DNA from: Paraburkholderia aromaticivorans
GTDB taxonomy: Bacteria; Pseudomonadota; Gammaproteobacteria; Burkholderiales; Burkholderiaceae
DNA length: 64,000 nucleotides
Reading direction: 5' to 3'
Assembly (NCBI RefSeq): GCF_012689525.1
Contig: NZ_CP051515.1
Location: 1,860,001 to 1,924,000 of the forward strand
Positions within the stretch are counted from its first letter, which is position 1. Each line of letters begins with the position of its first letter. The translations under genes and the position numbers were made by a program. Positions 1-22,166 of the stretch are shown piece by piece. The notes under the pieces are model-generated. The model saw only the letters and a list, made by a program, of their open reading frames with translations. It was not told where the DNA came from and ran no database searches.

Positions 1-2697
1 CCATGACGCGTACCCTCGCCGTTCGCGCTCGACGGCCAGCTTGTCCTGAATCACCTCCCAGACCTTTTCGGCCAGTTCATTCGGGTCGGCCGTCTTCTGC
101 GCAGCGGGCGCCGGCGCGGTTTGCGCAGGCGCCGTTGCGCCTGCGGGTCGAGCGGCCGTCTTTTGCGTGTCGACTGGGATGACACCGTATTGCTCGGCCA
201 GCCGATCTATCGCGACCGGCGGCGTGGATGGGTCACTGCCCGTTGGGCTGGCCGCCGCGGCGTGGCGTGCTGGCGCGCCATAGGCGGGCAACAGCGGCAA
301 CGGCGAGCGCTGGACAGCGCGCGCGCCCGTCGCGCGCATGGCCCACGAGCCCGACGGTGTGAACACCCGATGCACATACGGCGAGCGAGCGACGGGCGCT
401 CCCCGCACACTGGCGGTGCTGCGCTCGTCGATGGATGGGGGAGAAAAGTCGTACGACGGCGGTTGACCCCTACCGCCAGGTTCGTGCGTGAAATCGGCCT
501 GGCGCTCGACGCTGGTGTGCATCGATGTCGGAAAATCGTGGTGGAACATCATGCCACTGGGCTGCGTCAGCGGCTTCGCAATCCATTGCGGGTCGGACGA
601 CACCGCCGTACTCCCGGGCACCACTTCATTTGTCGATGTTGGCCGGGGCTGCGGACCGCTCTCGAGTGTTCCCGCCGCCGCCGTCGATGCTGACCAGGGC
701 GCGGACGGTGGCGTCGCGGTTCGGGCGACAACGCGGGCCAACGTGGCGGCTTCGCCAGGACCGGCGGCGCCGCTGAGCGACGCGGTACGCGATCCGGCCG
801 TCTCGCGCCCCGCGTGGTTCGGTGGGATCGGCTTGATCGGCAGATGCGAGGATGGCTCGGCGACAGCGGGGGCATCGGCCAGAACCTTGGCGTCTGATTC
901 GATTGCGGGATCGCGCTGCAAGCTCCTGCGCTCGCTCGAACCTCGCAACAGATTCACGATGGCTCGCGCGTTCACATCGGTTAAGCGGGCAACCGGTAAC
1001 GTTGCGACCGGCTCATGAGGCTCATGAGGCCGATGAGCTTCGGACGAAGCCTCGGCGCGGGACGGATTATTGGCGTCGGCGTGGAGCACAGCAGCCGCAA
1101 CCTGGGTGCGTGCATCAGCGGGGTTGTGTGACGATGCTGCGGTTTCGCGCGCAGGGGCGCCGGCCCATTCGCGGGCCGGTTGCGACGGCGCGCTGACGAT
1201 GGGAGCCGGCGCGAGAAGTGTGTGGTGGTCCACAGCTAATCGACGACGCTCCGGCAAAGCAGACGCGGCGCGGCTCACTGATCCGTACACTGAGGCGCGC
1301 TGCATCGTATTTGCCGTCGGCCACATCGCGACCGCCTCGCGAGTGGCCCGATCGATAGCCCGCTCGGTCCGCACGGGAGCAACGTCGCTCGGGATTCGCG
1401 ATGCGGTCCGCGCAAGGACAGCTTCCCCTACGACGTTCGACGCAGTCCGCGCAGCGGCAGCGTCGGTCTGGACTCGCGATGCGATCCGTTCACGGACGGC
1501 TTCGTTTACGGCAGGCCATACAGTCCGCGTCGCCGAGGTCGAAGCGCTGCTTGCGCCCTTCAGGTTCAAAGACGGGTTGTGGGAAGCGACGCGCATCGGA
1601 CTGGCCAACGGCTGCTCCAACGTCCCCCGGCGGCCGCGCTCGCGATGAATCACGCCGTGCATCACGCCGGGTAGGGGTTGCCTGGATGCCGTCGTGAGCA
1701 TCGTCGAAGGTCGAGGCGTCGCAATCTCGTGCGTGCCGGACGCGACCGATGCGGCCATCGGCATGCGCATCGTGACGGACGTCAACGCGTTCGTTACCTG
1801 TGCGCGAGACTCGACCGAGCCACGCGCACTTGGCTCCCCGATCGTCAAGCTGCCGGAGGGGACCAAGGGCGTGCGCGATTGCGGCACCATTGCGTCCCGC
1901 ACGCTAGCCGAGCCCTCGCCCGCGTGCTGTTGAACTGACTCACCGTGAACATGACCGGTGCTGATGGAGCGCTGCAGCGCAGTGGCGTCGGTCAGATCGC
2001 CGGCAACGGATTGGTCCGCTCGCACGTCCGGCTTCCGCGCAGCCTGCTGGGGCGCTGCGTGAACCTGCGGCGACTCCGGCTGTTCGCTAGCGGTCGCACT
2101 TGCCACCCGGTCAATGGCGCGACGCCCGATCGGCGCGACCGGATCGGGCGCATGCGCAGGTTGAGCGCCATCGCGCGCCACAATCGACGCAATCGCCGCG
2201 CTCGCCGCAGTCGGCACGGATGCCACCGGTGACACGGTCGGTGCACTCTGTGCGCCAGCCTCATCCGCCGCGCTCGCCGCAGCGGATCCTGCACGATCGG
2301 TTGAGGCGTGCGTCCGCGGTATCTGTCCATCATCCTGCCGAGCGTCAGTCGTCAACAGCAGTGCGTCCGCGCTGAACTGATCGTGCGCACTGGCCACCGG
2401 CAACTCCGTCAGTTGCGCGCGCGCGACCACCCTATGCGTCCCGGCGAGGGGCACATCAGGCGGCTGCGGATCAAATCGCGTACGCCACCCAACCACAACA
2501 GGCCAGTTCTGCGCGTCACCCGTTGCGTCGCGGCCGCTTGCGCGCCGCAATGGCCCGGCGACGAACTCCGTGTGTCTGTCCTGGATCGCGGCGCCCATCC
2601 GCGTCGCCTCCCACGACTGCCCCGAGCGGTGCCGCGCGATATGCGTATGACGCTGCCACAGCGCGTCACCGAGCGATCGCGTAACCGACGTAGTCAC
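1..2697 (-). CDS. Long disordered eCIS-cluster protein (3' end beyond the window)
   Basis: This frame is open from a GTG at 2697 to the left edge: I read every codon of the frame and found no stop in 899 codons. The GTG overlaps the stop of the upstream tube gene (GTGA), so it is translationally coupled. The product is dominated by Ala, Ser, Pro, Arg and Thr, with no recognisable globular domain in the middle. There are loose internal repeats of the type (R)TASR and a few short ordered-looking stretches. The last visible residues form a likely amphipathic helix containing LAEKVWEVIQDKL followed by ERERRGY, a type of C-terminal segment I associate with proteins of phage-tail-like/eCIS loci. 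The true end should lie just outside the window. Function is unknown; position in the structural operon suggests an assembly, tape or cap-associated role (inference). The open frame is secure, the role is not. Confidence 0.75.
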   Translation of the reverse strand, partial: MTTSVTRSLGDALWQRHTHIARHRSGQSWEATRMGAAIQDRHTEFVAGPLRRASGRDATGDAQNWPVVVGWRTRFDPQPPDVPLAGTHRVVARAQLTELPVASAHDQFSADALLLTTDARQDDGQIPRTHASTDRAGSAAASAADEAGAQSAPTVSPVASVPTAASAAIASIVARDGAQPAHAPDPVAPIGRRAIDRVASATASEQPESPQVHAAPQQAARKPDVRADQSVAGDLTDATALQRSISTGHVHGESVQQHAGEGSASVRDAMVPQSRTPLVPSGSLTIGEPSARGSVESRAQVTNALTSVTMRMPMAASVASGTHEIATPRPSTMLTTASRQPLPGVMHGVIHRERGRRGTLEQPLASPMRVASHNPSLNLKGASSASTSATRTVWPAVNEAVRERIASRVQTDAAAARTASNVVGEAVLARTASRIPSDVAPVRTERAIDRATREAVAMWPTANTMQRASVYGSVSRAASALPERRRLAVDHHTLLAPAPIVSAPSQPAREWAGAPARETAASSHNPADARTQVAAAVLHADANNPSRAEASSEAHRPHEPHEPVATLPVARLTDVNARAIVNLLRGSSERRSLQRDPAIESDAKVLADAPAVAEPSSHLPIKPIPPNHAGRETAGSRTASLSGAAGPGEAATLARVVARTATPPSAPWSASTAAAGTLESGPQPRPTSTNEVVPGSTAVSSDPQWIAKPLTQPSGMMFHHDFPTSMHTSVERQADFTHEPGGRGQPPSYDFSPPSIDERSTASVRGAPVARSPYVHRVFTPSGSWAMRATGARAVQRSPLPLLPAYGAPARHAAAASPTGSDPSTPPVAIDRLAEQYGVIPVDTQKTAARPAGATAPAQTAPAPAAQKTADPNELAEKVWEVIQDKLAVERERRGYASW

Positions 2698-3131
2698 TTA
2701 TGCACTCCCCGATGTACAACCTCAATCGACTCGAATGCGACCGCCGACGTGTTCGCGTGCATCTCCGGTCCGGTCCACTTGACGGGGCACGCATCCATGA
2801 ACGTCCAGTGCAAGCCGGGCAGGCCGCGCGTGCCGTTCAGAAGAATCGTCAACGGCTGTCTTGCGATCTGTCCATTCAACACCAGTAGATACCAGTGCCA
2901 CAGATCCTGAGGATCACCGAGACCGCGCTTCAGCACGAGCCGCGACGAGTACTTCGTCGGCCCCACCAGTTGGTGTTCGAAATCATTCACGCCGCCTTCG
3001 CGCAGCGACTCGACCTCGGACTCGACGACCAGCCCCGACACCTCGTTAAACCCGGCGACCACACGAGGGCCGATCGAAACGGAGAACACGAAACCGACAT
3101 ACAGGTTGTCTGCTCTGATTGACATGGCCAT
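2694..3131 (-). CDS. gp19-type tail tube protein, copy 2
   Basis: This 145-residue protein belongs to the phage T4 gp19-like tube family, which stacks as hexameric rings to form the inner tube of contractile injection systems. It shows the usual family landmarks: an N-terminal strand with GFVFSVSIG, the AGFNEVSGL motif (about residues 27-35), a KRG turn (about 69-71), and the C-terminal block with PVKWTGP followed by ESIEVVHRG. ATG at 3131 is used; a second ATG two codons in is also possible. It sits 3 bp after the DUF6760 gene and overlaps the next gene by four bases. It is clearly paralogous to the tube gene at 3670-4116 but diverged, so the particle probably uses two tube proteins, one perhaps a baseplate-proximal initiator (inference). 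Confidence 0.9.
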   Translation of the reverse strand: MAMSIRADNLYVGFVFSVSIGPRVVAGFNEVSGLVVESEVESLREGGVNDFEHQLVGPTKYSSRLVLKRGLGDPQDLWHWYLLVLNGQIARQPLTILLNGTRGLPGLHWTFMDACPVKWTGPEMHANTSAVAFESIEVVHRGVHK

Positions 3132-3134
3132 GTG

Positions 3135-3362
3135 CTACTCCAGAGCGCCTGGTTGCGCGTGATTGATGCGCCCGTTGATTCTGGCCACCTCTTCCACCCA
3201 CCGCTGACGCTCGAGATGGTCGAGCTTCATCAGTTGCGAGTGTGGCCAGTGAAAGTGATACGCGACGTAGGCTACCTCCTCGAAGAGCTGGTCGGGGGGG
3301 TAGCCTATGGCTCCCCCGATTCTTCGATTTCCACCTCGAATTTCTTTTCGCAGCCTGGACAC
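3135..3362 (-). CDS. DUF6760-type small tail protein; start codon uncertain
   Basis: The conserved core begins at IGYPPDQLFEEVAYVAY and continues with HFHWPH and ERQRWVEEV, matching my recollection of DUF6760, a short protein found next to tube genes in phage-tail-like clusters and possibly related to tail-assembly chaperones. The only standard in-frame start upstream is a GTG at 3362. Using it forces a 58-base overlap with the preceding gene, and no Shine-Dalgarno sequence precedes it. The homologous part would start at an ATA codon (3306) that overlaps the TAG stop of the preceding gene and follows a GGGGGAG stretch. The extent is therefore given as the longest standard reading. The product is 75 residues from GTG or about 56 from the ATA. 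Identity of the core is moderately sure; the start is not. Confidence 0.7.
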   Translation of the reverse strand: MSRLRKEIRGGNRRIGGAIGYPPDQLFEEVAYVAYHFHWPHSQLMKLDHLERQRWVEEVARINGRINHAQPGALE

Positions 3363-3673
3363 GTCACGCGCACGCGATTGTGGCCATTGCTGTTGATTCG
3401 CTGGTATAGCGCCTCCAGATGCGCAAAGTCTGCCGAAAACAGTTCCTCGATTACGCGCGGGTTGACCTGCGGCAACTCGCCAAGCTGCGTCACCACGCGC
3501 GATAAAAGAATGATCGCCAGATAACCGGGGTTCGATTGCACACGCGGATCCTTCATTGGCGCAATCTCGTCGTTCGCGGTCGCGAGCCGCATCACGCCAT
3601 CGCGATGCAGCGTGCCCTGCGCATCGACGTAGCCATTCGGCAGCGTGAAGGGGAATTCAGTGATGAGGCTCAT
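3305..3673 (-). CDS. Small phage-tail-like assembly protein with a C-terminal CPGC motif
   Basis: This 122-residue protein lies between the tube gene and the DUF6760 gene, overlapping the tube stop by four bases (ATGA at 3670-3673). It starts MSLITEFPFTLPNGYVD and carries a mostly helical middle (about residues 45-95). Its C-terminus has TCPGCEKKFEVE, one CxxC pair followed by an acidic tail. Proteins of this size and position in eCIS and tail clusters are usually annotated as tail-assembly or conserved hypothetical proteins. The single CxxC could bind a metal between two copies or be redox active; neither can be decided here. The role as an assembly chaperone is inferred from position. Confidence 0.75.
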   Translation of the reverse strand: MSLITEFPFTLPNGYVDAQGTLHRDGVMRLATANDEIAPMKDPRVQSNPGYLAIILLSRVVTQLGELPQVNPRVIEELFSADFAHLEALYQRINSNGHNRVRVTCPGCEKKFEVEIEESGEP

Positions 3674-4116
3674 TTGGTCCGATCCAGCCCTTCATGCACA
3701 AGTTCGATCGTATCGATCGCGACTTCGTTAGCCGTTGCGTTGAACGTCGGCCCGGTCCATTTGGTCGGCCACGCTTCGACAAAATCCCACTGCGCGACGT
3801 CGTTGCCTTCGTCGTCCATCAGAATGATCGAGCCATTCTTGCGGCAGTCCTTGATCTTGCCGTCCATCACCTGCTTGCGCCATTTCCACAGGTCATGGTC
3901 GTCGGTAATGCCGCGCTTCAAGGTGAGATTCGAGAACTTCTTCAGCCCCGGCAGCTTGTGAATCGTCAGGGTCTTGTCATCCCCTTCGCGATAGTCGATC
4001 GGATCCGTGGCTGCGTCGAGCCCCGATACTTCCCGAAAGCCTGCCCTTTGAATCCCGTCGATCGACACCCTGAATTTAAAGCCACGAAACGGATCAGAAC
4101 GCTTTCCGGTTGCCAT
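3670..4116 (-). CDS. gp19-type tail tube protein, copy 1
   Basis: A 148-residue T4 gp19-like tube protein. It carries FKFRVSIDGIQRAGF and VSGLD near the N-terminus, TLKRGITDDHDLW in the middle, and TKWTGPTFNATANEVAIDTIELVHEG at the C-terminus (about residues 116-143). This matches the family better than the second copy, so it is the likely main tube subunit of the injection particle. The start is ATG at 4116. It lies 14 bp after the second sheath gene, the usual sheath-then-tube order, and its stop overlaps the start of the CPGC protein gene. Confidence 0.93.
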   Translation of the reverse strand: MATGKRSDPFRGFKFRVSIDGIQRAGFREVSGLDAATDPIDYREGDDKTLTIHKLPGLKKFSNLTLKRGITDDHDLWKWRKQVMDGKIKDCRKNGSIILMDDEGNDVAQWDFVEAWPTKWTGPTFNATANEVAIDTIELVHEGLDRTK

Positions 4117-4130: not shown

Positions 4131-5423
4131 CTATACCGTGGCTGTAGGTCCAGTAACGGTCACGCCGCTCGCACTCTGCGTGATCCTGACAATGACAAAT
4201 TCGCTCGGCACCTCGGGCGCGAGGCCCACCTCTGCGACGACAACGCCGCTATCGCGGCTGTATGGCGGATTCGTTTCGGCATCGCACTTCACGAAATAGG
4301 CTTCTGACGGGCGCTGCCCCTTCAGTGCGCCATGCCTGTATAGCTCCGCGCAATGACGGTCGATCCGTTCGGTGATGATTCCCCACAAGACCGGATCGTT
4401 CAGTTCGAACACCAGATCGCGCAGATCGTGATCGAGCCAGCGCTTGAGTGCGAGCATCACGCGGGTGACGTTCACGTACATCCACGCGGACCGGTCATTT
4501 AGTGTGCGTGCGCCCCACACGCGAATACCCCATCCCGGCGACGCGCGCAGGCAGTTCACGCCAGCGCCGTTCAACTTCGTCTGCCCGCTGTCGTCGAGAT
4601 CGAACGACAGATCGAGCGCGCCTTCCAGCAGTTCGTTCGCGGGCGGTTTGTGTACGCCGATGCGCCGGTCGCTGCGCGCATACACGCCCGCGATGTGACC
4701 GCAAGGCGGAACCAGCATGTCCGCACGCGCAGTGCCGTCGCTCGCCCGGTGACCCTTGACCCGAATCCACGGAAAGTAGAGCGCGCCGTGATTCGCCGGC
4801 AGCGACTGCCAATGGCCGACTGCATCCATCACCACATCATCGTGACGCGGGTCGGTCATGGAGCTGTCCGGGTCGGTGGCACGCACGTCCAGAATCGCAA
4901 ACCGGTCGCCCATGCGCGCGCAGTATTCCATCACGGAGCCTTGCAACTCGATCACGCTCTCAGCGGAGCGCGCAATCACTCGCGTCATGATGTCGGGCAC
5001 ACAAACGAGATCGATCTCCTCGACTTGTTCCAGCGGGCCGCCGATCTCAAACAATGCGAGAAACGCCGACGTTACGTGGCTTGCGTGCATGTCGACGCCC
5101 ACCTCCGCGGGCGGATCGGGCGCCAGTTCGACTGGCATCACGTAGCACAACCGGCCACCATTTTCGAAGAAGCCGCGCACCGCGCACGCGAGCAGGCTGC
5201 TCACCGAATCGCTGGCGAACGCTTCGTCGAATTGCTGCCAGCGTGTCAGGCGGCGCACGGGCGCCGCGTCCTGCCCCGGCTGCACAGGGCCCGTCAAGCC
5301 GACAAACAGCGGCACCCCGCTCGGCAGCCGCGCCGGCGCGTTGGCAGCAATAGCCTGCCAGTCGAAGTAAAGACCGGGCGGACGCTGGAAGTCCGCACCG
5401 GGCGGGGGCAGTCGTGTGCTCAT
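4131..5423 (-). CDS. Contractile tail sheath protein, copy 2 (short form)
   Basis: A 430-residue tail sheath protein. Sheath subunits wrap the tube and contract to drive it into a target. The C-terminal third is the conserved sheath core: VWGARTL (around residue 300), LVFELNDPVLWGII, YFVKCDAETNPP, and the final strand FVIVRITQS that inserts into neighbouring subunits. The N-terminal part has FVGLTGP and FFENGG motifs, also seen in the longer sheath. ATG at 5423 follows a GGAG eight bases upstream-side (GGAGTGAGCG). It sits between the long sheath and the tube gene. Two sheath genes side by side, with the same C-terminus but different N-terminal decoration, suggest a mixed or zoned sheath (inference). 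Confidence 0.93.
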   Translation of the reverse strand: MSTRLPPPGADFQRPPGLYFDWQAIAANAPARLPSGVPLFVGLTGPVQPGQDAAPVRRLTRWQQFDEAFASDSVSSLLACAVRGFFENGGRLCYVMPVELAPDPPAEVGVDMHASHVTSAFLALFEIGGPLEQVEEIDLVCVPDIMTRVIARSAESVIELQGSVMEYCARMGDRFAILDVRATDPDSSMTDPRHDDVVMDAVGHWQSLPANHGALYFPWIRVKGHRASDGTARADMLVPPCGHIAGVYARSDRRIGVHKPPANELLEGALDLSFDLDDSGQTKLNGAGVNCLRASPGWGIRVWGARTLNDRSAWMYVNVTRVMLALKRWLDHDLRDLVFELNDPVLWGIITERIDRHCAELYRHGALKGQRPSEAYFVKCDAETNPPYSRDSGVVVAEVGLAPEVPSEFVIVRITQSASGVTVTGPTATV

Positions 5424-5445: not shown

Positions 5446-7419
5446 TCAGGTCTGCAGCGCACCGGTGGACTGGGTGATGCGGAAAATCACGAATTCGGCG
5501 GGCCGCACGATCGCCACGCCGATTTCCGTAATCACCTGGCCGACGTCGCGCACTTCAGGTGGATTGAGTTCCGCATCGCACTTCACATAGAAAGACTCTT
5601 CCGGTGTCGCGCCGAATAGTGCGCCGCTGCGCCATACGTTCTTCAGGAACGCGGAGATGTTCAAGCGGATCTTGGCCCATAAAGCCTCGTCATTCGGTTC
5701 AAAGACGATCCATTGAGTCCCTTCTTCAATCGACTTCTGCAGGAACAGGAACAGGCGCCGCACACTGATGTACTTCCATTCACCGTTCGCATCGCCGCCG
5801 ATAGTGCGAGCCCCCCAAACGGTGACCGCACCGTTCATGATGCGAATCGCGTTGACGCCCTGCGGGTTGAGCATTTCCTGCATGGGTTTGCTGACGTAGT
5901 ACTTGACCTCAATGGCGCCACGCACCACGCAATTCGCAGGCGCCTTGTGCACACCGCGCGTTTCGTCAGTCAACGAATAAATGCCGGCAATGTGTCCGCT
6001 CGGCGGCACATACGTGCGGCCTCGATATTTCGGATTGACCTTGCGTGCAAGGTCACTGTCCTGCAATTGCTTGGCGGGATCGATCACCTCGATGTGCGGA
6101 AAATAGAACGCGGCGTCCTTGCACGGGCGCGGCAGCGCCTCGCTGATTCCCCCACTGCTGGTGTAGCTCAACTGCTCGATGTCGAGATCGTTGTCAATTT
6201 CGTCGTTGACTACCTGCTCGCTGTCGAGAATCGCAAAGCAGTTTTCGCGGTCTTCCACGTGGTCCATCAACGCCTCCCACGTAGTCGGGTTCTTCGGCAA
6301 ACCTGGCGCGGCGATAATGGCGAGTTCGTCGATCGACCTGAACTTCTCCAATGCGTCTTCAAGCTGATCGACGTTGTCGATTCGCGCCACGAAAGCCTTG
6401 GTCCCGCCGTTTCTGAAGAAACCATTGAGTGCGTGCGTCAACGCGTGATGGCCAGGATGCATCGGACCGAATATCCTGCTGTCAGGACTGTCGTCCGGGT
6501 TATCGGCGAGCGCTTTATAAGCCGAGAAATTGCCGAAACGCTGCACGTATTCGGTGAAGTTGGTGCACAGCTTCGTGTCGAGCGCGGCGGTTGGAATAAC
6601 GAATTCCTGCAGCACGAACGGACTCAGAATCGAACGGGCAAGAAGCTCGTTGCCGCCCGTCACGTCCTCGAAATCGGCGTCCTCCTGCTCGACGAAACTA
6701 CTTTTTGGCGGCGTCCTGGCCGGCGGCGCGGCCGCGGGCGCTTCCGCCACCGCGACGGCTCCCTCAGCGGCTTCTGCGCCACCAGCAGGAGCAGGCGCCG
6801 GCTGCGTTTTTGCCGCAGCCAGCTTCTCCTTGAGTTCATCGAACTCCTGCTGTTTCTGCGGTATCTCCTGCTCTATCTCGGCAAGATTTCTTATCGCCGT
6901 CGCGTGGGCTTTATCAGCTTTCTGCTCAGCCGCGCGGGCAACGTCGACCGCTCTCTTTTTCGTGTCCCGGTCCGCATCGTCAGTCGCGGCGTTGAGTGCA
7001 GTGGTCGCACTTTCCAGCGTCTGCGCCGCGGCGACCAAGGTTGTTTTCGTCGCGTCCACCTGCTGCTGCGCTAGCGGCTGTTTTTTGGTCAAATCCGCAA
7101 GCGCGGCGCTCACGCGTTGAACGGACTTGTCGAGGACCGCAATTGCCTGCGCTTTCGCCTCCGCCGCGACGGCTTCTCTGCCAGGATCGACAGGCGCACC
7201 CGGCACCGCCGCCGCCTGGCCGGCTAACAGGTCCGCAAGCTGCGCCGCAGCGCGGGCAGCCACCGGATCGTAGTCGGGATTGGGCACCGGAATATAGATC
7301 TTCGGACCGAAGACACCGATAAATCCGGCGACATTGGTTCCCACACCCGCAATCGGTTGCTGTGCGGACGCGACTTCTTCCACATAGACGCCCGGGGCGA
7401 GATAAGTTGCACTTGACAT
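5446..7419 (-). CDS. Contractile tail sheath protein, copy 1, with a coiled-coil insert
   Basis: This 657-residue sheath protein starts at ATG 7419, nine bases after AAGGGGA; a GTG two codons upstream is possible. The N-terminus (LAPGVYVEEV, GTNVAGFIGV) and the C-terminal core (AVTVWGARTI, WIVFEPNDEALW, FYVKCDAELNPP, FVIFRITQS) are standard. Between about residues 45 and 255 lies an unusual insert: a long Ala/Lys/Gln/Glu-rich segment with strong coiled-coil character (about 75-205), followed by a Pro/Ala linker. Ordinary sheath subunits of this type lack it and are close to 400-500 residues. The insert would be expected on the outer face of the particle, where it could bind other subunits or the envelope (inference). 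It is the first large structural gene of the operon. Confidence 0.93.
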   Translation of the reverse strand: MSSATYLAPGVYVEEVASAQQPIAGVGTNVAGFIGVFGPKIYIPVPNPDYDPVAARAAAQLADLLAGQAAAVPGAPVDPGREAVAAEAKAQAIAVLDKSVQRVSAALADLTKKQPLAQQQVDATKTTLVAAAQTLESATTALNAATDDADRDTKKRAVDVARAAEQKADKAHATAIRNLAEIEQEIPQKQQEFDELKEKLAAAKTQPAPAPAGGAEAAEGAVAVAEAPAAAPPARTPPKSSFVEQEDADFEDVTGGNELLARSILSPFVLQEFVIPTAALDTKLCTNFTEYVQRFGNFSAYKALADNPDDSPDSRIFGPMHPGHHALTHALNGFFRNGGTKAFVARIDNVDQLEDALEKFRSIDELAIIAAPGLPKNPTTWEALMDHVEDRENCFAILDSEQVVNDEIDNDLDIEQLSYTSSGGISEALPRPCKDAAFYFPHIEVIDPAKQLQDSDLARKVNPKYRGRTYVPPSGHIAGIYSLTDETRGVHKAPANCVVRGAIEVKYYVSKPMQEMLNPQGVNAIRIMNGAVTVWGARTIGGDANGEWKYISVRRLFLFLQKSIEEGTQWIVFEPNDEALWAKIRLNISAFLKNVWRSGALFGATPEESFYVKCDAELNPPEVRDVGQVITEIGVAIVRPAEFVIFRITQSTGALQT

Positions 7420-7482
7420 GGACACGTCCCCTTTCAGTCGATATTCCTGCGCACAATGATCCGTTTCAACCGCTCTGCTGCG

Positions 7483-8082
7483 TCACCCGCCCTTGTACGC
7501 CATCTCATCGAAATGGAAGATTCTCTCCTTGACGAGATACACCTCTTGCGGCGCGGCAACGTCGATGGAGAGCGTAACGGTGTAGTTGATCGCAGCCTTG
7601 GGCTTGCCACCCATGGCCTGCCAGAATTCGCCGAGGCTCTGCAGACGCCCCGGCTGTAATGCACTGACCGGCAACGGCAGTTCGCTGGCGGCAAGCGTCC
7701 CGTGCAGCAGATCCTGCGGCAGCGTGCGGTAACGCAACAACACGCGCATCACCTCGCCGAGCAGGCGATGTTCGTCTTCCGCCGGATTGGCGATCCCTTC
7801 GCGCGGCCATGCCGTAATCAGATAAGAAGCGTCAACGCGCACCGGCATAAAACGGCGCAACGCGATGCCGTTTTCATGCTTTTCAAGCTCGACATCGTTA
7901 CTGCGCAATTCGAGGTTTTCGCGCACGTCGTAAAGAAACAGATCGACCGCCGGCGTGGTGACAGATTGCGGCGGAAAGCGATCATCCGGCGCCTCGAAGC
8001 TCACCTGGATCTGTTCGCTCAAACCAGGTGCGAGTTCGCGTCTCAGCAATGCCGCCAAGGTCTTGTCGAGGTCGTCAATCAT
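7483..8082 (-). CDS. DUF4255 family eCIS protein
   Basis: A 199-residue DUF4255 protein, a family that marks phage-tail-like/eCIS gene clusters (the Pvc16-type gene is thought to cap or join the tube end). I start at ATG 8082 because the family begins with M-I-x-DLD-x-TL-x-x-LL as here (MIDDLDKTLAALLRREL). The frame is open for a further 69 codons upstream, but that part looks non-coding. An AAGGGA lies 13 bases upstream. Family landmarks are the VDLFLYDVRENLELR strand (about residues 48-62) and the C-terminal strands INYTVTLSID and ERIFHFDEM. It is the first gene of the minus-strand structural operon, after a promoter candidate at 8240-8268. Confidence 0.88.
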   Translation of the reverse strand: MIDDLDKTLAALLRRELAPGLSEQIQVSFEAPDDRFPPQSVTTPAVDLFLYDVRENLELRSNDVELEKHENGIALRRFMPVRVDASYLITAWPREGIANPAEDEHRLLGEVMRVLLRYRTLPQDLLHGTLAASELPLPVSALQPGRLQSLGEFWQAMGGKPKAAINYTVTLSIDVAAPQEVYLVKERIFHFDEMAYKGG

Positions 8083-8239: not shown

Positions 8240-8268
8240 TGGATAGGGCAGATCTTTAACAATGTCAA
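8240..8268 (-). promoter_or_regulatory. Promoter candidate for the eCIS structural operon
   Basis: On the minus strand, TTGACA (8268-8263) is followed after exactly 17 bases by TATCCA (8245-8240). The -35 box is a full consensus match and the -10 is weak. It would start a transcript about 150 bases before the DUF4255 gene. The same CTTGACA with 17-base spacing precedes the facing operon and the FHA gene at 21066-21923. Confidence 0.45.
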
Positions 8269-14255: not shown

Positions 14256-14735
14256 ATGTGTAGAAACATGATGTGGATGCTGTTCGCAGTCCTGGCAGCA
14301 TGGACAGCGTCCGGCTGCACGCTGATGAATCAGTACCAGGACGTGCAAGCGACCCAGCAGCGGGTGCAGTACAAGGAGACAGACCTCGCGCAGGAGCAGG
14401 CGATACGGGATGAGTTGAATCGCCAGACGCGGCAACTCAGCGCCGACCTCGCGAACCGGCAGATGACCGCCGGGCAACTGGACCAGCGGCTGGCGGCCTT
14501 GCAGAAGCAGAATGATCGGCTCGCGGCGACCAATGCGAAGGAGCGCCAGAAGACCGCGCAGCTACGCCAGCAGATCGCCGGCTATCGCGCGCAACTCGAC
14601 GCGCTTGAACACGATACGACGTCGAATCCGGACGACATCCGCGCAAAGATCGACCAGGTCAAGCTGGAAATCAGGCAGCGGCTCGAGGTACAGGCCGGCG
14701 TTCGTTCGACCCCGGCCGCCCCGCCGCATGAATAA
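14256..14735 (+). CDS. Small coiled-coil lipoprotein
   Basis: A 159-residue protein with a lipoprotein signal (hydrophobic MLFAVLAAWTA, lipobox ASGC, Cys21) and then an almost continuous coiled coil (about 25-145), ending in a Pro/Ala tail. It resembles the preceding lipoprotein in design but lacks the glycine zipper. Its last codons overlap the start of the S41 protease gene by eight bases, so the two are translated together. The function is unknown; lipid-anchored coiled coils often bridge outer membrane and inner-membrane partners. Confidence 0.85.
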   Translation: MCRNMMWMLFAVLAAWTASGCTLMNQYQDVQATQQRVQYKETDLAQEQAIRDELNRQTRQLSADLANRQMTAGQLDQRLAALQKQNDRLAATNAKERQKTAQLRQQIAGYRAQLDALEHDTTSNPDDIRAKIDQVKLEIRQRLEVQAGVRSTPAAPPHE

Positions 14736-15846
14736 GGCCATGCTGCTCGCCGTGCTGGTCACGCCGCTCGTCAGCGCGTCGGGGCCGACGCGCGGGCCGT
14801 CCGACTGCCCGCTCGATTGCGCGGCGCAATCCGATCCCGCGTTGCAGCTCTATGCGCAGGCGCTTTCGCTGATCAGCACGAAGGCGGTCTTCGCGCGCGG
14901 TGACCCGTTGCAGATTGTCGGCGAGACGCTCGGCGACTATCTGGCCACGCAAGATCCCTATTCCGGCTTCCTGACACGCGACGAATACGTCGCGTACCTC
15001 GGCGTGCGCAACGGCCACTATTCAGGCGTCGGCGCGGACCTCGAACGGCGGCGCGACGGCACCACCCTGTTCTATCCGTATCCGCAAGGGCCGGCCGCGC
15101 GTGCCGGCATCCGGTCCGGCGAGCAGTTGCTCGCCATCGATGGGCAGCGCGTCAGGGGCAAACCGCTCGCCTTACTCGCCGCGCTGGCGACCGGCCAGGC
15201 CGGCACGCAGGTCAGACTGCAAATCGCCGATGCGCGCGGCGCAGTGCGCGAAGTCAGCGTGACGCGCGAGACGCTCGACGCCTCGCCAGTCTCTGACTAC
15301 ACCGTCGGCGACATGCACGTGCTGAAGATCACCGACTTCACCAGCTCGACGCTGAGCGACGTGAAAGCGACGCTGTCACGCTGGGACCGCAACATGCCGG
15401 TCATCATCGATTTGCGCGATTGCGGCGGCGGCGATTTCTATACGGCGATCGATACCGCGATGCTGTTTCTGACCAGCGGCATGCCGATCGTCTCCGTGAT
15501 CCAGCGCGGGCTCACGCAGACCTACACGAGCACGACAGCGGGACTCGCGCTTGCGCAGCCGGTTTTCCTGTGGCAGAGCGAACACACGGCGAGCGCCGCG
15601 GAACTGTTCATCGGCGCGCTAACCGACAACGGACGCGCCATCTCAATCGGCCGCACCAGCGCGGGCAAAGGCAGCCGGCAGGACATTCTGCCGCTCAGCG
15701 ATGGTTCGGCACTAATCCTGACCACTGGCTACCTCGTCACGCCTCAAGGTGTGCGTTTCGACGGTCAGGGACTCGCGCCGCAACGCCCCGTCATGGACGG
15801 CGCAGCCACCACCATTTATCTACAGGCTACCGTCGCCACGGAGTAA
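14728..15846 (+). CDS. Exported S41-family (C-terminal processing) peptidase
   Basis: A 372-residue secreted or periplasmic protease with a short signal peptide (MNKAMLLAVLVTPLVSASG). A PDZ domain (about 95-180, GVGADLE, GPAARAGIRSGEQLLAIDG) is followed by the S41 core. The catalytic serine is in TASAAELF (about residue 290) and the lysine in SAGKGSRQ (about 315), followed by DGSALILTTGYLVTPQG. Such proteases trim C-termini of envelope proteins and activate regulated proteolysis. It lies between the lipoproteins and kinase 2, so it may process a component of this circuit (inference). The start is ATG 14728, overlapping the previous stop. Confidence 0.92.
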   Translation: MNKAMLLAVLVTPLVSASGPTRGPSDCPLDCAAQSDPALQLYAQALSLISTKAVFARGDPLQIVGETLGDYLATQDPYSGFLTRDEYVAYLGVRNGHYSGVGADLERRRDGTTLFYPYPQGPAARAGIRSGEQLLAIDGQRVRGKPLALLAALATGQAGTQVRLQIADARGAVREVSVTRETLDASPVSDYTVGDMHVLKITDFTSSTLSDVKATLSRWDRNMPVIIDLRDCGGGDFYTAIDTAMLFLTSGMPIVSVIQRGLTQTYTSTTAGLALAQPVFLWQSEHTASAAELFIGALTDNGRAISIGRTSAGKGSRQDILPLSDGSALILTTGYLVTPQGVRFDGQGLAPQRPVMDGAATTIYLQATVATE

Positions 15847-15849: not shown

Positions 15850-17169
15850 ATGCAAGACGATTATCTGATCGGCCGGACCGTGCACGGCAACCTGTTGATC
15901 AAGGCGCGCATCGGCGAAGGCGGGATGGGACAGGTCTATCTTGCGTCCAACGTCGAGGTGCAGGAGAGGCGCTACGCGGTGAAGATCCTCAAGCGCGAGC
16001 TCACGCACGACGCCAGGTTTCGCCAGTACTTTTACGACGAAGCGCGGCATCAGGCGCAGCTCGATCACCCGAACATCGTCCAGATGATCGATTATTTTCA
16101 TATCGACGACGACTATTACCTGGTACTCGAATACGTCGACGGCCAGTCGCTCAGCGAAATGATCGAAAGCAAGGGTAAGAACGGTCTGCCCGAAAAGCAG
16201 GCGCTGTCGACCGTCAAGGGTGTGCTTGCCGGGCTCGACTGTGCGCATCGGCTGGCTATCCTTCACCGCGACGTCAAGTCGTCGAACGTGCTGGTCGACC
16301 GTTCCGGCCGCGCGCGCCTGACCGACTTCGGGATCGCAATGCAAGCCGGCGGTCCGGGCGCGTCGCAGGGAGCGAACGTGATGGGCACGCCCGCTTACAT
16401 GAGCCCTGAACAACTGCGCAACAGCGCGGACATCGATCATCGTTCGGACGTGTATTCCGCGGGCGTCGTGCTATTCGAAGCGTTGACCGGCAGGCTGCCG
16501 TTCACGGGCGAGACCTTCGAGGCCGTCCAGGCTCAGCAGATGGCGCATGCTGCGCCGGATCCGCGCCGGTTCAATCCGAAGATCCGCCGTGGCGTGGCCG
16601 AAGTCGTACGGCGCGCGTTGCGCATCGATCCGGCCGAACGCTTTCAAGGCTGCGGCGCATTCCTGAAAGCGCTCGAGAAGCTCGACAGCGACAAGTGGAA
16701 ATATGTGCTGGTGTCCGCGTGCGTGATGGCGGCGTTGAGCGTCTACCTCGTCAAGGCACTCGTGATCGACAGGCAGGCGATTCACAACGTGCTGACCAGC
16801 GCGACGCGCGCGCACAACCTGCTGTGCCGCGAGCAGACGTTACGCGAATTTCGCGAACGGCAGAGGGACATTGCGACTGCGGACGGCTTCTCGGATCTGA
16901 CCACCAGTTTTACCAAACTGATCTCCGACAGCGATCGCAACATGGTTACGTTCTCGTCCGACTACAGCCAGGCACTGCATCGCCTGACAGATTTCAATCA
17001 GCTGGCAGTTCGGCAGGTGCTTGACGCGCCCGAGTCCGATCCCCACACACGCGAGACGAAGCCGCGGCTGCGTGCCGATTATCAGCAGTATCGCGAGACC
17101 GGGCAGCCCCCGTCGACCCAGGCGATGCGCGGTAATTGTCCGCAGATCGGTTACGACGCTTCCGAGTAA
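15850..17169 (+). CDS. Membrane Ser/Thr protein kinase 2 with ectodomain
   Basis: A 439-residue Hanks-type kinase with IGEGGMGQVY, Lys45, HRD at 139-141 (ILHRDVKSSN), DFG at 159-161 and GTPAYMSPEQ, all intact. A transmembrane helix (about 281-301) is followed by a roughly 138-residue periplasmic segment of mixed helical character with two cysteines (LLCREQ and GNCPQIG) that could form a disulphide. The ectodomain is not a PASTA domain and I do not recognise it; it is the best candidate for the signal-sensing part of the circuit. It begins 3 bases after the S41 protease and is followed by the PAAR-like gene. Confidence 0.93.
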   Translation: MQDDYLIGRTVHGNLLIKARIGEGGMGQVYLASNVEVQERRYAVKILKRELTHDARFRQYFYDEARHQAQLDHPNIVQMIDYFHIDDDYYLVLEYVDGQSLSEMIESKGKNGLPEKQALSTVKGVLAGLDCAHRLAILHRDVKSSNVLVDRSGRARLTDFGIAMQAGGPGASQGANVMGTPAYMSPEQLRNSADIDHRSDVYSAGVVLFEALTGRLPFTGETFEAVQAQQMAHAAPDPRRFNPKIRRGVAEVVRRALRIDPAERFQGCGAFLKALEKLDSDKWKYVLVSACVMAALSVYLVKALVIDRQAIHNVLTSATRAHNLLCREQTLREFRERQRDIATADGFSDLTTSFTKLISDSDRNMVTFSSDYSQALHRLTDFNQLAVRQVLDAPESDPHTRETKPRLRADYQQYRETGQPPSTQAMRGNCPQIGYDASE

Positions 17170-17188: not shown

Positions 17189-17578
17189 ATGGCACAACAG
17201 GTCACGATGGGCGCACTCCTGCAGTGCAGTTTTGGCGTCGCGCCCGCAAGTCTCACGGTGTTGCCGGTCAATCGCGTGATGGCCGAAGGTCCGCCGGCAG
17301 CAACCATTCAGGATCATGTGCCGCTCGTCAATATTGGCTCGTTCGGCATGTGCATGTCGATTGCCAATCCGGCCGTGGCGGCCGCGACAAGTGCGGCGCT
17401 CGGCGTACTGACGCCGATGCCGTGCATTCCCGCGACCGTGAGTCCATGGGTGCTAGGCGCGCCGACCGTGCTGATCGACGGCATTCCGGCGCTGGACAAT
17501 CTGTCTCAATGCATGTGCATGTGGGCAGGCGTGGTGACGATCTCCGATCCCGCGACGGTGCGCACCAATGTGCCCTAG
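17189..17578 (+). CDS. DUF4280 PAAR-like spike-tip protein
   Basis: A 129-residue protein of the DUF4280 (PAAR-like) family. It has the family's metal-coordinating cysteines and repeated short turns: LLQCSFG, FGMCMS, MPCIPAT, WVLGAPTVLIDG, LSQCMCMWAG and VVTISDPATV. PAAR proteins sharpen the tip of contractile injection spikes and carry effectors. ATG 17189 has GGAG six bases upstream; the ATG at 17183 is too close to it. It is the last gene of the signalling operon and the only obvious particle component on the plus strand, tying this operon to the injection system. Confidence 0.9.
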   Translation: MAQQVTMGALLQCSFGVAPASLTVLPVNRVMAEGPPAATIQDHVPLVNIGSFGMCMSIANPAVAAATSAALGVLTPMPCIPATVSPWVLGAPTVLIDGIPALDNLSQCMCMWAGVVTISDPATVRTNVP

Positions 17579-17748: not shown

Positions 17749-20394
17749 TTACCTCGAGCTTTTAACCCGCCTATGCAGACCGGCAGCTTGCCGCGAACTG
17801 GACGGCACCGGAGAACCAAGCTTCGCCTTCCGATGACTCCACCAATACTTCGCCAGCGGAATCAGGAGCGTCACCCACAACCATTTCCAGTTTGCTGCAA
17901 TGAACCGGGCGACGAGGCTCATCGGCGTCACGGTGACATCGATGTTCTCGGCGTACGTCTGGATCGTCACCGGTTCAGATTTACCATTAATCGAGACCAG
18001 CGCTTCAAGTTCCAGACGAAGTGCGTGCTTGCCCCAGGTCTTCGGCGTAACCAGCCAGGTCCACACGGCCGGTCGCTTATCACTGACCGCCTGCCGCTGC
18101 CACCCCGCCGGGTCGATGAGGAAGTCGGCGGGGTCGGCCGTCAGCTTCGCGTGCATGACATCGGATATCTGAACCCGGTTGTGGTGGAAACCGCTAGCCG
18201 ACGGATTCATATCGGTGATCATGGCCTCGATCTGTGGAATCTGCCGCGTCGCGTCGAGGACAAAGTCGATCCGGCATGGGCAATTGTCGTCGACGTCCAC
18301 GACATCTGGCACGTTAAAGACTGCATTGGCTGACTTCATTTGCGCGAGCGCAGCGTCGACGGATTTGAACCCCGTGGATGTCGCGGCCGGTTGGGCGGCC
18401 AGATCCGCCGCCGCGTCATGCGCCGTATCAGATGAAGCCTGTCCCGCAGTTGCCGCGTCGTTCGCATGGCTCGCGAGCACGCCCGCACCGGCCGCCCCCG
18501 CCAGGGCAGCCGCCGCCCCTGGCCCCGGACTGGCCGCTGCGGCGGCCGGTGCCTCAGGTGCTGCAACAGGAGGTGCGCCTGCGAGGGGCGCCTCAGCCGT
18601 AGCAACAGGAGGTGCGCCTCCGAGGGGCGCCTCAGCCGTGGCAACAGGAGGTTCGCCGATGGCTTGTGCTTCGCCAGGGGCGGGCTGCCCTTCAATTGCG
18701 ATGCTTCCCGCACCCGTCTGATCGGGTTCGGGCTGCGCCGCCGCGACGTCGGCCGCAGGGGATGTCGCCACATCAGGCGTGTCTGTTTCATCCGGGGCGG
18801 CCTCGACGGTCGCCGCATCTGCGGGCGACGTCATTGCACCCGCTGCCGCTCCGGTGGTGCCCGCTTGCGATGGTCGATCCGACAACGTCGCCGTGGCACC
18901 GACTCCCACGGACGGGTGACCTCCCGAGTCTGGTTGATTTGGTCCCGTGCTCGCAACCGCCGGCGGCGGCTGAACCGTTCCGGTCGCCGGCCGGGGCCCC
19001 GGTGCGGTGGGCGACACGACATCCCTAGGCTGATTTGCGGCAGAAGAGCCGATTGCCCCTTTTGAACCGCCTGCCCCCGAATCGGTGATGCGCGATTGCG
19101 CGGTTATGGACATCCCTGCGCCCCTCCCGTCGCCTTTCAAAACATCACGCCTGTCGTCATGTCCGGATTGCCCGGGCCCCGGTATTTTCAGCATATACAC
19201 CGTGACGGGCGTGCCCAAGGGCACCTCGGTGCCCGGCGCCGGCACCTGGTTCAGGATTTGACCGGCATGAGCCGATCCGTCATTTTCAGCGAAAGCCAGG
19301 ACCAGGTTGCTCGCGCCTAGCCGGCGCCCCGCATCTGCGACGCTCGAATTCGTGAGGTCGGGAACCTTGACACTGGCCGCCGCTGTGCCGGTGATGGATA
19401 CATTGACAACTGTACTGGGAGACACGTGCGTTCCTGGTAGCGGCAGTTGCGTGTGAATGGTGCCGGTGACCTGATTAGCACTGACGCCGCCTATCTGGAG
19501 CCCACTATTGCGTATCTCCCGGCGTGCTTCCTCCAGAGTGCGCCCGACCACTCCTGGAACGACGATGTACACGACCTGAAGGGGTGGCATGTAGGGCCGC
19601 AAATTAGTGGCCGGCACGCCTGAAACGTTGCTGGTCTTCGAATATGGGAGCTTGACTGTCGTCGATGGCACTCCCGCACGGGAATAGGTGGACGCGTTGC
19701 CAACCTGTTGCTGATGGGAACCCAGGGCGGGAGTCGCCACGTTTTGATTCTGAGCCGCGGACATCGGCTGTGAAAGGTTGCCAGCGGTGCCGGGCTTCTG
19801 CTGAGTCCGCCGCATCATCTGCTGTTGCTGCGCCTGCTGCGCCTGCTGCCGTTGCTGCGCCTGCTGCTGCGCCTCCTGCCGTTGCTGCATCCCCCGCTGT
19901 TGCTGCGCCTCCCGCTGTTGCTGCATCTGCCGCTGTTGCTGCGCCTCCCGCTGTTGCTGCGCCTCCCGCTGTTGCTGCGCCTCCCGCTGTTGCTGCATCT
20001 CCCGCTGTTGCTGCATCTCCCGCTGTTGCTGCATCTCCCGCTGTTGCTGCATCTGCCGCTGTTGCTGCATCTCCCGCTGTTGCTGCATCTCCCGTTGTTG
20101 CTGCATCTCCCGTTGTTGCTGCATCTGTTGCTGAGCAGAGGACGTGGATTGCTGGCATTGACCCATCTGAAAATTACAAGCGACGCCGCCCGCAAAAGCC
20201 AAATCAAGCTGGCAGCCCGTCTCAATCGTGACGCAGGCTAAAACCAGGCACCAGAGAAAACGCCTGAACGTTCCACGTGACCGGTATTCATCCAGCCAGC
20301 GCGTCGAGAGCAAGCGTTCGAATGACACAGCAGCCTTTCGTGGCAACGTCAACAGAGCGGGATGAAACGGGCGGTCAGCTTGCTGCACTTCCAT
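17749..20394 (-). CDS. Two-PASTA membrane protein with QQQREM repeats
   Basis: An 881-residue protein. In order it has a basic N-terminus; a hydrophobic export segment (about 44-70); a Gln-rich region (about 83-205) built of hexapeptides of the QQQREM/QQQREA type; two PASTA domains (about 278-340, VVPGVVGRTLEEARREI; and 345-405, VKVPDLTNSSVADA); a long Pro/Ala/Thr/Ser linker (about 410-680); a folded periplasmic-looking domain (about 685-840, with DNCPCRIDFVLD); and a C-terminal transmembrane helix (about 840-862) ending in a basic cytoplasmic tail. PASTA domains bind peptidoglycan fragments and are normally part of PknB-type kinases; here they are a separate protein beside two kinases lacking them. 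A role as the envelope sensor of the circuit is inferred. The start is ATG after GGAGGGGAGAG. Confidence 0.9.
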   Translation of the reverse strand: MEVQQADRPFHPALLTLPRKAAVSFERLLSTRWLDEYRSRGTFRRFLWCLVLACVTIETGCQLDLAFAGGVACNFQMGQCQQSTSSAQQQMQQQREMQQQREMQQQREMQQQRQMQQQREMQQQREMQQQREMQQQREAQQQREAQQQREAQQQRQMQQQREAQQQRGMQQRQEAQQQAQQRQQAQQAQQQQMMRRTQQKPGTAGNLSQPMSAAQNQNVATPALGSHQQQVGNASTYSRAGVPSTTVKLPYSKTSNVSGVPATNLRPYMPPLQVVYIVVPGVVGRTLEEARREIRNSGLQIGGVSANQVTGTIHTQLPLPGTHVSPSTVVNVSITGTAAASVKVPDLTNSSVADAGRRLGASNLVLAFAENDGSAHAGQILNQVPAPGTEVPLGTPVTVYMLKIPGPGQSGHDDRRDVLKGDGRGAGMSITAQSRITDSGAGGSKGAIGSSAANQPRDVVSPTAPGPRPATGTVQPPPAVASTGPNQPDSGGHPSVGVGATATLSDRPSQAGTTGAAAGAMTSPADAATVEAAPDETDTPDVATSPAADVAAAQPEPDQTGAGSIAIEGQPAPGEAQAIGEPPVATAEAPLGGAPPVATAEAPLAGAPPVAAPEAPAAAAASPGPGAAAALAGAAGAGVLASHANDAATAGQASSDTAHDAAADLAAQPAATSTGFKSVDAALAQMKSANAVFNVPDVVDVDDNCPCRIDFVLDATRQIPQIEAMITDMNPSASGFHHNRVQISDVMHAKLTADPADFLIDPAGWQRQAVSDKRPAVWTWLVTPKTWGKHALRLELEALVSINGKSEPVTIQTYAENIDVTVTPMSLVARFIAANWKWLWVTLLIPLAKYWWSHRKAKLGSPVPSSSRQAAGLHRRVKSSR
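19888..20121 (-). repeat. 13-copy 18-bp tandem repeat encoding QQQREM
   Basis: Thirteen consecutive 18-base units within the PASTA gene, reading on the plus strand as CTGTTGCTGCATCTCCCG and variants, encode QQQREM, QQQREA, QQQRQM or QQQRGM. Degenerate Gln-rich copies continue to about 19820. As the unit is a multiple of three, copy-number change would lengthen or shorten the stalk without a frameshift. Confidence 0.9.
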
Positions 20395-21065: not shown

Positions 21066-21923
21066 TTAGCGCGGACGCGCGGCGCCACCGGAATGGCCAA
21101 TCCTGCGAAGTTCGTAGGTCGTGCGTCCAAAGCGAATCAGGTCCCCAGGCGCGAGCATCACCACGCTTTGGCCGACCCGCGTGCCATTGCGAAAGGTACC
21201 GTTGCTCGATCCGAGATCCTTCAGATAGAGGCAGCCCTCCTGAAACCGAATGTTCGCATGCTTACGGGATACATACGCGTCGCCACGGATGACGAGGTCA
21301 TTTTCATCTTCGGTGCCAATCTGCACCTTCGATTTCTCAATCGGAAAGCGCGTGTCACGGTGTCCGCCCCCATCCTTGAACAGGATCGCCGCGGGCCGGC
21401 CCGGAGCGGGATTCGGAAAAACCACGCTCACCCGGTTAACGCCATGCGCGAGCGGCGGCAGCGGCTTAACCACTTTTGGCTGCGGGACCACAGTAACCGG
21501 ATTCGGACGACGCCCCCAGTGGCGGATCACGGCCCATCCAGCGACGCACGCGAGCAGAAACCCAAAGACTCCGCGCAGGTCGAACCGCACGCTATCGATC
21601 GTGACCGACCACCAGCTCTTCGGGACCGGCTGCCACAAAGACGGCCGAGGAGTGGCTGGTGTAGCGAGCGGCACCTGTGACTCGGGCATGGCGAGTGCGA
21701 CGCTGACTGGCATCAGTGTCGCCGGTTGCGACTTCGATGCGGTCACGGTGAGCCGTGTTGCGGCTGGCGGATTGAATCCGGTGAAAGCCCGCAGTTCGGT
21801 GCGTGCCTGCGCCATCACCCCACCAGGCGCTCGCCATTCCTCCGCGGAGGCTTGCCGGGAGGCGGCGGCGCCTGTGGCAAGTACCACTATTAGCGAAGCT
21901 GAGCGAACTGCTTGAATGTTCAC
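21066..21923 (-). CDS. Signal-TM-FHA membrane protein
   Basis: A 285-residue protein from GTG 21923, chosen because GGAGGG lies just upstream and because it puts a good signal peptide (ending ASRQASA) at the N-terminus; the frame is open 44 codons further. An extracytoplasmic Pro/Ala-rich part (about 30-125) is followed by a transmembrane helix (about 135-155, FGFLLACVAGWAVIRHW), a linker, and a C-terminal FHA domain (about 190-275) with YVSRKHANI, DLGSSNGTFRNG and PGDLIRFGRTTYEL. That FHA domain is very like the one of the VWA-FHA protein, so the two are paralogues. It lacks the VWA domain. It probably forms another cytoplasmic phosphothreonine docking site of the same circuit. Confidence 0.88.
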   Translation of the reverse strand: MNIQAVRSASLIVVLATGAAASRQASAEEWRAPGGVMAQARTELRAFTGFNPPAATRLTVTASKSQPATLMPVSVALAMPESQVPLATPATPRPSLWQPVPKSWWSVTIDSVRFDLRGVFGFLLACVAGWAVIRHWGRRPNPVTVVPQPKVVKPLPPLAHGVNRVSVVFPNPAPGRPAAILFKDGGGHRDTRFPIEKSKVQIGTEDENDLVIRGDAYVSRKHANIRFQEGCLYLKDLGSSNGTFRNGTRVGQSVVMLAPGDLIRFGRTTYELRRIGHSGGAARPR

Positions 21924-22137
21924 AGTCCCTCCATGCGCGTCCATCGTGGGAATCTGGAAAACGCCCGTTGACCGGCAATTTCGCGTGGGATCGTCGGGTC
22001 GAGAGAATCGTAAGCGCGTTTTGCGTGCCACGTATCGCACATTCTGGCATCGCATCGAATCCGGCCCGTGCTGGAAGCGGACGCAATCCGCGCCATGGCG
22101 GCCCTCACATCAACAGTTCGTGTGACTAACTAAATCA

Positions 22138-22166
22138 TCTATAGAAGACCACTTTTGCTTTGTCAA
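22138..22166 (-). promoter_or_regulatory. Sigma-70-type promoter of the FHA gene
   Basis: Minus strand: TTGACA (22166-22161), 17-base spacer, TATAGA (22143-22138). This is the strongest promoter match of the locus. It would give a leader of about 205 bases before the GTG start. Confidence 0.6.

Follow-up and report, generated by a model that had tools for sequence, protein, structure and literature searches.

A conserved betaproteobacterial contractile injection locus with a predicted trans-envelope Ser/Thr phosphorylation module

Introduction

Does a phosphorylation cassette that lies back-to-back with a phage-tail-like contractile injection machine belong to that machine and, if so, what would it control? 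The question is raised by a stretch of 64,000 nucleotides (the window) from the 10.84 Mb, four-contig genome of the soil-type bacterium Paraburkholderia aromaticivorans (C2:1860001-1924000). In it, an operon of the extracellular contractile injection system (eCIS) type occupies the minus strand, and a conserved nine-gene cassette (about 8583-17578) the plus strand. The cassette codes, in order, for a VWA-FHA protein with a transmembrane (TM) segment between its two domains, a PP2C phosphatase with a TM segment, a second FHA protein (FHA2), TM-anchored kinase 1, lipoproteins A and B, an S41 protease, kinase 2 with a TM segment and a periplasmic domain, and a DUF4280 protein. Machine and cassette almost certainly form one conserved system, and together they represent a betaproteobacterial eCIS lineage with its own predicted trans-envelope Ser/Thr phosphorylation module. 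Little is known of how eCIS-type machines are controlled, and the Streptomyces protein CisA and the thylakoid-anchored contractile injection system (tCIS) show that some of them work within cells. With a conserved kinase/phosphatase/FHA circuit, firing would become testable by simple gene deletions.

Gene content of the machine and the cassette

A first-pass annotation of the window had described two sheaths, two tubes, DUF4255 and DUF6760 genes facing an operon of kinase, PP2C, FHA, lipoprotein, S41 and PAAR-like genes. Pfam matches bear this out, the lipoproteins being recognised by eye; the gene content thus stands, but the VWA domain fused to the first FHA domain had gone unmentioned. The structural operon is indeed present in the window, but it extends about 11 kb past the window start, up to an AAA gene. 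Its order is Pvc16, sheath B, sheath A, tube 1, a chaperone-like protein, DUF6760, tube 2, a 900-aa low-complexity protein and a CIS_tube-LysM protein, followed by a hub, an OB spike, gp25, two J-like baseplate proteins (the second called via PHROG 6, 2.4e-6), Tail_P2_I, a 337-aa protein and the AAA ATPase; the genes from tube-LysM to AAA lie in the adjoining stretch L004, beyond the window start. Sheath, tube, Pvc16, hub, spike, gp25, J-like baseplate and AAA genes are thus all within one cluster, and an eCIS_core (DUF4157) gene is found about 15 kb out (L004:73-1002; PF13699, 7e-33).

In the cassette, Pfam finds FHA and VWA domains in the VWA-FHA open reading frame (8556-10220) and Pkinase domains in the two kinases (9.2e-52 and 8.7e-53). 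TM segments were predicted by simple hydropathy, a rough method. By this measure both kinases are membrane-bound, and the PP2C has its enzyme domain inside, a TM segment and a tail outside in six of seven rows; the N-terminal hydrophobic segment of VWA-FHA is scored in five of seven, the export signal in the rows of the window and of G371 being seen by eye only. Past its TM segment, kinase 2 has about 130 residues that would lie outside, predicted to be all-helical, with Cys326 and Cys430 invariant. When a model of this kinase was compared with the PDB by Foldseek, the best 50 of 1997 rows were all alignments of the kinase domain (about 263-282 columns of 439 residues). The window and five relatives keep the catalytic motifs of the kinases, the PP2C and the S41 protease, and the VWA motif as well, with the kinase 1 Lys pattern unmatched in two rows and the second VWA motif pattern unmatched in two VWA rows. 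In the protease the Ser-Lys pair is presumably catalytic. By its predicted topology, then, the cassette would span the envelope.

Conservation and co-inheritance

If the cassette were a chance neighbour, it should be found apart from the machine, and the first-pass annotation had proposed a search of related genomes for co-occurrence of the two sets, separation in most relatives being taken to refute the link. Among 398 genomes of the family, a profile search finds full-length VWA-FHA (E<1e-100) in six, the remaining matches listed being partial, to the FHA or the VWA part. Pvc16 is present at 1e-10 or better in 12 of the 398. Close Pvc16 homologues (E<1e-90, 73-100% identity) occur in the same six genomes as full-length VWA-FHA, divergent from it and adjacent; the other six (31-35% identity) are in genomes without it. 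The wider sample of the order gives a similar distribution: VWA-FHA at 1e-25 in 2 of 399 genomes (G000 and G789), and Pvc16 in four, namely G000, G789 (64%), G595 (40%) and G688 (30%), with identity above 60% only in the two that bear VWA-FHA. G595 has the structural set without the cassette, a single weak PP2C match lying 16 kb away, and G688 has Pvc16 and AAA with no cassette gene within the 20 kb read.

All cassette genes are matched, in the same order, in five of five Burkholderiaceae relatives, and the joint arrangement recurs in G789, in Nitrosovibrio tenuis and on the megaplasmid of P. caribensis MBA4, which is the sole VWA-FHA match at 1e-30, and the sole Pvc16 above 60%, among plasmid records. 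At these nine loci (the window and the eight just named), eight regulatory genes adjoin the same structural genes in the same order without exception, and chance neighbourhood is therefore rejected. Over the nine loci, unrooted trees agree in topology by eye whether based on the 10 structural or the 7 cassette genes used, with support of at least 0.997; they were built without the sheaths, tube 2, lipoprotein B and DUF4280, and the AAA of P. caribensis is missing from them. Machine and cassette identities correlate at r 0.955, a value equalled in 0 of 5000 permutations. Separation in most relatives is thus contradicted by the betaproteobacterial sample, where full-length VWA-FHA and close Pvc16 always occurred together.

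Beyond these genomes, the cassette was seen in one locus (N. tenuis) of the best 80 of at least 585 confirmed eCIS loci, a survey that contains no Burkholderiaceae. Only about 50 of the 80 have at least 8 kb upstream (by eye), so that absence of the cassette is weak evidence for the rest. Single or few matches to cassette profiles occur at L051, L057, L082, L089 and L103, and a set at L072. Four of six VWA-FHA homologues (the window's own excluded), and 9 of 36 listed lipoprotein A matches on contigs of at least 10 kb, lie on contigs whose length exactly equals that of a contig with a listed sheath match; these counts, made by eye from the best 120 of 1637 sheath matches and the best 120 of 211 lipoprotein A matches, are supportive only.

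The DUF4280 protein offers a physical link between the two gene sets. Its family has been named PAAR-like (PMC5014421, available in part), and no PAAR protein was recognised in the structural operon, where the gap between spike and gp25 is 76 bases and leaves no room for a PAAR gene. It is among the best conserved proteins (81-89% identity in the five relatives), closer in this to tube 1 (90-91%) than to the kinases (48-76%). As the last cassette gene in seven of nine loci (78-89% identity to that of the window), it would tie cassette to machine in the Burkholderiaceae, and it is likely the needle tip, held by the cassette at those seven loci. Because the gene lies beyond AAA in N. tenuis and G789, it is on the same contig in all nine. 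In N. tenuis the neighbourhood of DUF4280 (G440:C12:157854-161358) holds, judging by eye, a Sigma-54-type activator and another VWA-TM protein, this one lacking FHA.

A kindred module in Chloroflexota

At L072, from Anaerolineaceae, genes for a kinase, a PP2C, a VWA-FHA protein and a further FHA protein stand directly before AAA, Pvc16 and sheath. A match to the L072 VWA-FHA is found at 1e-5 in 3 of 13 Chloroflexota eCIS genomes (one weak, 6.8e-7 and partial), and at 1e-15 in 22 of 154 genomes of its order, the Anaerolineales; the four module genes are not all visible at every locus. Genes of the eCIS lie within the stretch read in 10 of these 22 (L072, L080, L225, L226, L227, L232, L234, L235, L236 and G879), L227 having a partial AAA at a contig end and the eCIS genes of G879 (L246) being separated from the module by some 6 kb or more. 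Another seven (L222, L224, L230, L231, L237, L239 and L219) are on contigs too short to tell. At least three loci (L080, L226 and L236; by Pfam for the latter two) have a PAAR gene between FHA and AAA. When their profiles are compared, the two VWA-FHA groups align over the VWA part alone (E 2.7e-9), which does not establish shared descent of the whole module.

At two module-only Anaerolineales loci, L223 and L240, there are genes with LQLQRLxGN leaders, which we take to be a sign of eCIS cargo and which hint at an eCIS elsewhere in those genomes.

What might the cassette control?

That these genes travel together suggests control by the cell itself over the time or place at which the needle is mounted or fired. 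The reading we prefer, to which we give about one chance in two, is that phosphorylation gates docking or firing inside the producing cell. On this proposal, the reading of an envelope event such as damage, contact or a state of the cell wall would fall to the coiled-coil lipoproteins together with the VWA domain, the S41 protease and the periplasmic domain of kinase 2. Both kinases would then phosphorylate cytoplasmic targets, with PP2C resetting them. The membrane VWA-FHA protein may be a docking platform that, together with FHA2, would recruit or arm a particle retained by its producer. The baseplate would meet the membrane, the DUF4280-tipped spike would be mounted and the sheath would contract, much as in CisA-dependent contraction with a phosphorylation switch added. 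It is a more tentative proposal, held at less than even odds, that an eCIS class spanning two distant phyla, in betaproteobacteria and Chloroflexota, is not set free to work by itself but is held and fired inside the living cell by a dedicated trans-envelope kinase/PP2C/VWA-FHA circuit in which VWA-FHA is the phospho-controlled docking platform. If true, this would be a contact- or damage-triggered weapon built on eCIS hardware, a third way beside the type VI secretion system (T6SS) and the free eCIS. VWA-FHA and lipoprotein A would serve as markers to find more such systems.

Several observations weigh against gated firing by this circuit. No membrane anchor was recognised by simple hydropathy in the structural proteins, except a borderline hydrophobic stretch in the 337-aa protein, and the PP2C of N. 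tenuis is without its TM anchor. In two loci DUF4280 is detached from the cassette and lies past AAA, across the structural operon, at a distance of about 14 kb (N. tenuis) and 27 kb (G789). A cassette-based search was the source of several of the nine loci, and the cassette comparison leaves out most sheath relatives (for example Paraburkholderia GAS334 and BR13444, Nitrosospira Is2 and Variovorax) as well as the distant sheath matches. In the cassette FHA domains of the window and relatives, aligned by eye without G789 and P. caribensis, the arginine of the Gly-Arg pair is replaced, by Ala or Ser in VWA-FHA, Lys or Ser in FHA2 and Thr in the neighbouring FHA3. Finally, five of the 22 Anaerolineales module loci (G899, G911, G862, G905 and G901) have no eCIS gene in the stretch read.

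This last point would be expected if the cassette were an independent envelope-stress system hitch-hiking on the same island. We consider that very improbable: full-length VWA-FHA and close Pvc16 are never apart in the betaproteobacteria sampled, the trees agree, and the tip candidate is inside the cassette at seven of nine loci.

The missing arginine bears on two further questions. Since the canonical phosphothreonine-binding residue is absent from the cassette FHA domains viewed, it is not certain that they work as the T6SS Fha does, and a straight copy of the PpkA/PppA/Fha pathway, to which the first-pass annotation had likened the cassette, is not supported. Among three control FHA proteins, that of G108 has Gly-Arg and those of G000 and G371 do not, so that the cassette is not alone in having lost this residue. 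The same absence, together with matches of all three window FHA proteins to PF16697 (the YscD cytoplasmic domain; weaker than those to FHA), is what one would expect if VWA-FHA and FHA2 were phosphorylation-independent scaffolds like the FHA-like domain of YscD in the type III secretion system, the kinases and PP2C having another or minor role. Yet a Ser and a His near the FHA site are retained in the rows viewed, as are the kinase and PP2C motifs, and Gly-Arg is kept in eight of eight aligned Chloroflexota VWA-FHA proteins; we find this explanation improbable.

The module might instead govern a step other than firing, such as assembly, cargo loading by AAA, or release (for example through wall opening by S41 or a lysozyme), with the particles acting outside the cell as classical eCISs. 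The structural set is otherwise that of an ordinary eCIS, and a phage-type lysozyme gene adjoins AAA in G000 and G108. This lysozyme is, however, present in only two of six loci compared, and the lipoproteins, periplasmic VWA and periplasmic kinase domain seem more than assembly control would need. We hold such a role to be unlikely, though a good deal less so than scaffolding, and retain phospho-gated docking or firing as the working proposal.

Other features of the region

The coordinates of the features in the window are given in Table 1. The first-pass annotation had added a PASTA protein and a further FHA protein (FHA3) to the system. Both are present, but neither is a conserved neighbour, the PASTA protein having a partial match in one of five relatives; as core parts they were rejected on this ground.

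Table 1. Features of the window, with positions counted from its first nucleotide
Feature	Position	Strand	Evidence and remarks
900-aa Ala/Ser/Arg-rich protein	1..2697	-	Ends just past window start
Tube protein 2 (gp19 family)	2694..3131	-	Pfam gp19
DUF6760 protein	3135..3362	-	Pfam 6.6e-17
Tail assembly chaperone-like protein	3305..3673	-	PHROG 508, 4.1e-7; conserved in five relatives
Tube protein 1 (gp19 family)	3670..4116	-	90-91% identity in five relatives
Sheath A	4131..5423	-	Pfam Phage_sheath_1/1C; kept in relatives
Sheath B	5446..7425	-	Pfam Phage_sheath_1/1C; long insert near N terminus
Pvc16/DUF4255 protein	7483..8082	-	Pvc16_N 1.8e-30; frame open to 8289, homologues begin near 8082
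Promoter-like TTGACA-17-TATCC(A/C)	8240..8268	-	Points to structural operon
Promoter-like TTGACAAA	8404..8433	+	Points to cassette; present in 4 of 9 loci
VWA-TM-FHA membrane protein	8583..10220	+	VWA predicted periplasmic, DRSGS motif; TM 370-388; FHA cytoplasmic
PP2C phosphatase with TM and periplasmic tail	10261..11595	+	Pfam PP2C 7.8e-20
FHA2, soluble FHA protein	11752..12510	+	Pfam FHA; Cys/His-rich, Zn-ribbon-like N terminus (by eye)
Ser/Thr kinase 1	12517..13458	+	Pkinase; C-terminal TM tail anchor
Lipoprotein A	13602..14222	+	Lipobox and coiled coil by eye; four invariant Cys; LDARL motif
Lipoprotein B	14256..14735	+	Lipobox and coiled coil by eye
PDZ-S41 protease	14728..15846	+	Pfam S41 and PDZ; export signal by eye; Ser-Lys pair 25 residues apart
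Ser/Thr kinase 2	15850..17169	+	Pkinase; TM near 288-306; predicted periplasmic domain
DUF4280 PAAR-like spike-tip candidate	17189..17578	+	DUF4280 2.5e-31; PAAR motif 0.038
PASTA protein, Gln-rich repeats	17749..20394	-	PASTA 6.3e-18; neighbour gene
FHA3, membrane FHA protein	21066..22055	-	FHA 2.6e-18; resembles VWA-FHA minus VWA; neighbour gene

Between the two operons, the intergenic stretch common to both (8083-8582) has two opposed promoter-like elements. That at 8240..8268 has 9-12 of 12 consensus positions in seven Burkholderiaceae loci and, more weakly, 8 of 12 in the other two, against a consensus picked after viewing the sequences; a standard promoter scan did not list it.

Among the structural proteins, tube 2 has 54-64% identity across the other eight loci, and the 900-aa protein is matched in the five Burkholderiaceae relatives only in the short part adjoining the tube 2 gene (8-18% of the protein). 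The insert of sheath B is charged and Ala-rich; sheath B of N. tenuis is shorter (550 aa). Neither Pfam nor PHROG gives a match to the 337-aa protein, whose structure model is poor (pLDDT 45).

Outside the window, a membrane protein, a phage-type lysozyme and a lipoprotein with an LprI domain (lysozyme-inhibitor family) adjoin AAA (L004:1549-4126, plus strand). The same trio is present in G108, and the membrane protein also in G402; it could be a cell-wall effector with its immunity, or a lysis set. Farther along lie long putative cargo genes (L005:17167-19986 and 12178-16362, minus strand) with weak tape-measure-like PHROG matches. The protein of 17167-19986 has hydrophobic segments and an LQRAVGN motif that resembles a leader. 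No tail fibre was matched among the proteins scanned, save weakly (0.00025) in a long cargo candidate.

Comparison with known systems

In the T6SS, kinases phosphorylate Fha or TssL and thereby start assembly, which a PP2C phosphatase reverses, according to the available parts of three articles (PMC6082577, PMC3953482, PMC12607579). The cassette resembles this threonine phosphorylation pathway (PpkA/PppA/Fha, TagQRST) in having a membrane kinase with a periplasmic domain, a PP2C, FHA proteins and lipoproteins; it differs in its PF04984 sheath machine, the VWA fused to FHA and the membrane-bound PP2C. The Fha of Agrobacterium tumefaciens has R30, whose change alone lowers secretion and together with S46 abolishes it (PMC3953482, same portion), whereas the cassette FHA domains viewed are without that arginine. 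Identity with a T6SS was rejected by sheath type: both sheaths match PF04984/PF17482, and there is no two-chain TssB/TssC. No Pfam match to TssJLM was found among the cluster proteins scanned, the rest of the genome being outside that search. Another kinase and an FHA protein lie about 8 kb apart at G000:C2:251056-259438, perhaps a T6SS phosphorylation set.

The actinobacterial GAP1-N2 systems (PMC7159879) likewise have kinase, PP2C and vWA genes as neighbours; they are GTPase-centred, and 'contractile' and 'phage tail' are absent from the text available. In the literature searched, which held no preprints and few subscription papers and so gives no proof of absence, we found no description of such a cassette with an eCIS. 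PMC10598620, PMC12210884 and PMC11297309 have no occurrence of kinase (or protein kinase) and FHA. For eCISs, the available part of Geller 2021 (PMC8213781) names a histidine kinase and regulators of the GerE/BTAD type; neither 'FHA' nor 'phosphatase' occurs there.

With the eCISs Afp, PVC and AlgoCIS, the machine shares single-chain sheaths, DUF4255, the LysM tube protein, hub, OB spike, gp25, J-like baseplate, AAA and eCIS_core. Set apart from them are its kinase/PP2C/FHA cassette, the DUF4280 tip candidate within that cassette and the absence of a recognised tail fibre. Among relatives that stay with the cell, the cytoplasmic systems of Chloroflexota such as Roseiflexus remain inside it (PMC12998442; 'kinase', 'FHA' and 'phosphatase' are absent from the accessible text), and the tCIS is anchored through fibre and baseplate extensions (PMC8894136; no 'kinase' or 'FHA' in the accessible text). 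The closest working precedent is Streptomyces CisA, a membrane protein that an eCIS-type particle retained inside the cell requires in order to contract (PMC12237407; the portion available has no 'kinase', 'phosphoryl' or 'FHA'). Set beside it, the circuit proposed here would join T6SS-style post-translational control to an eCIS.

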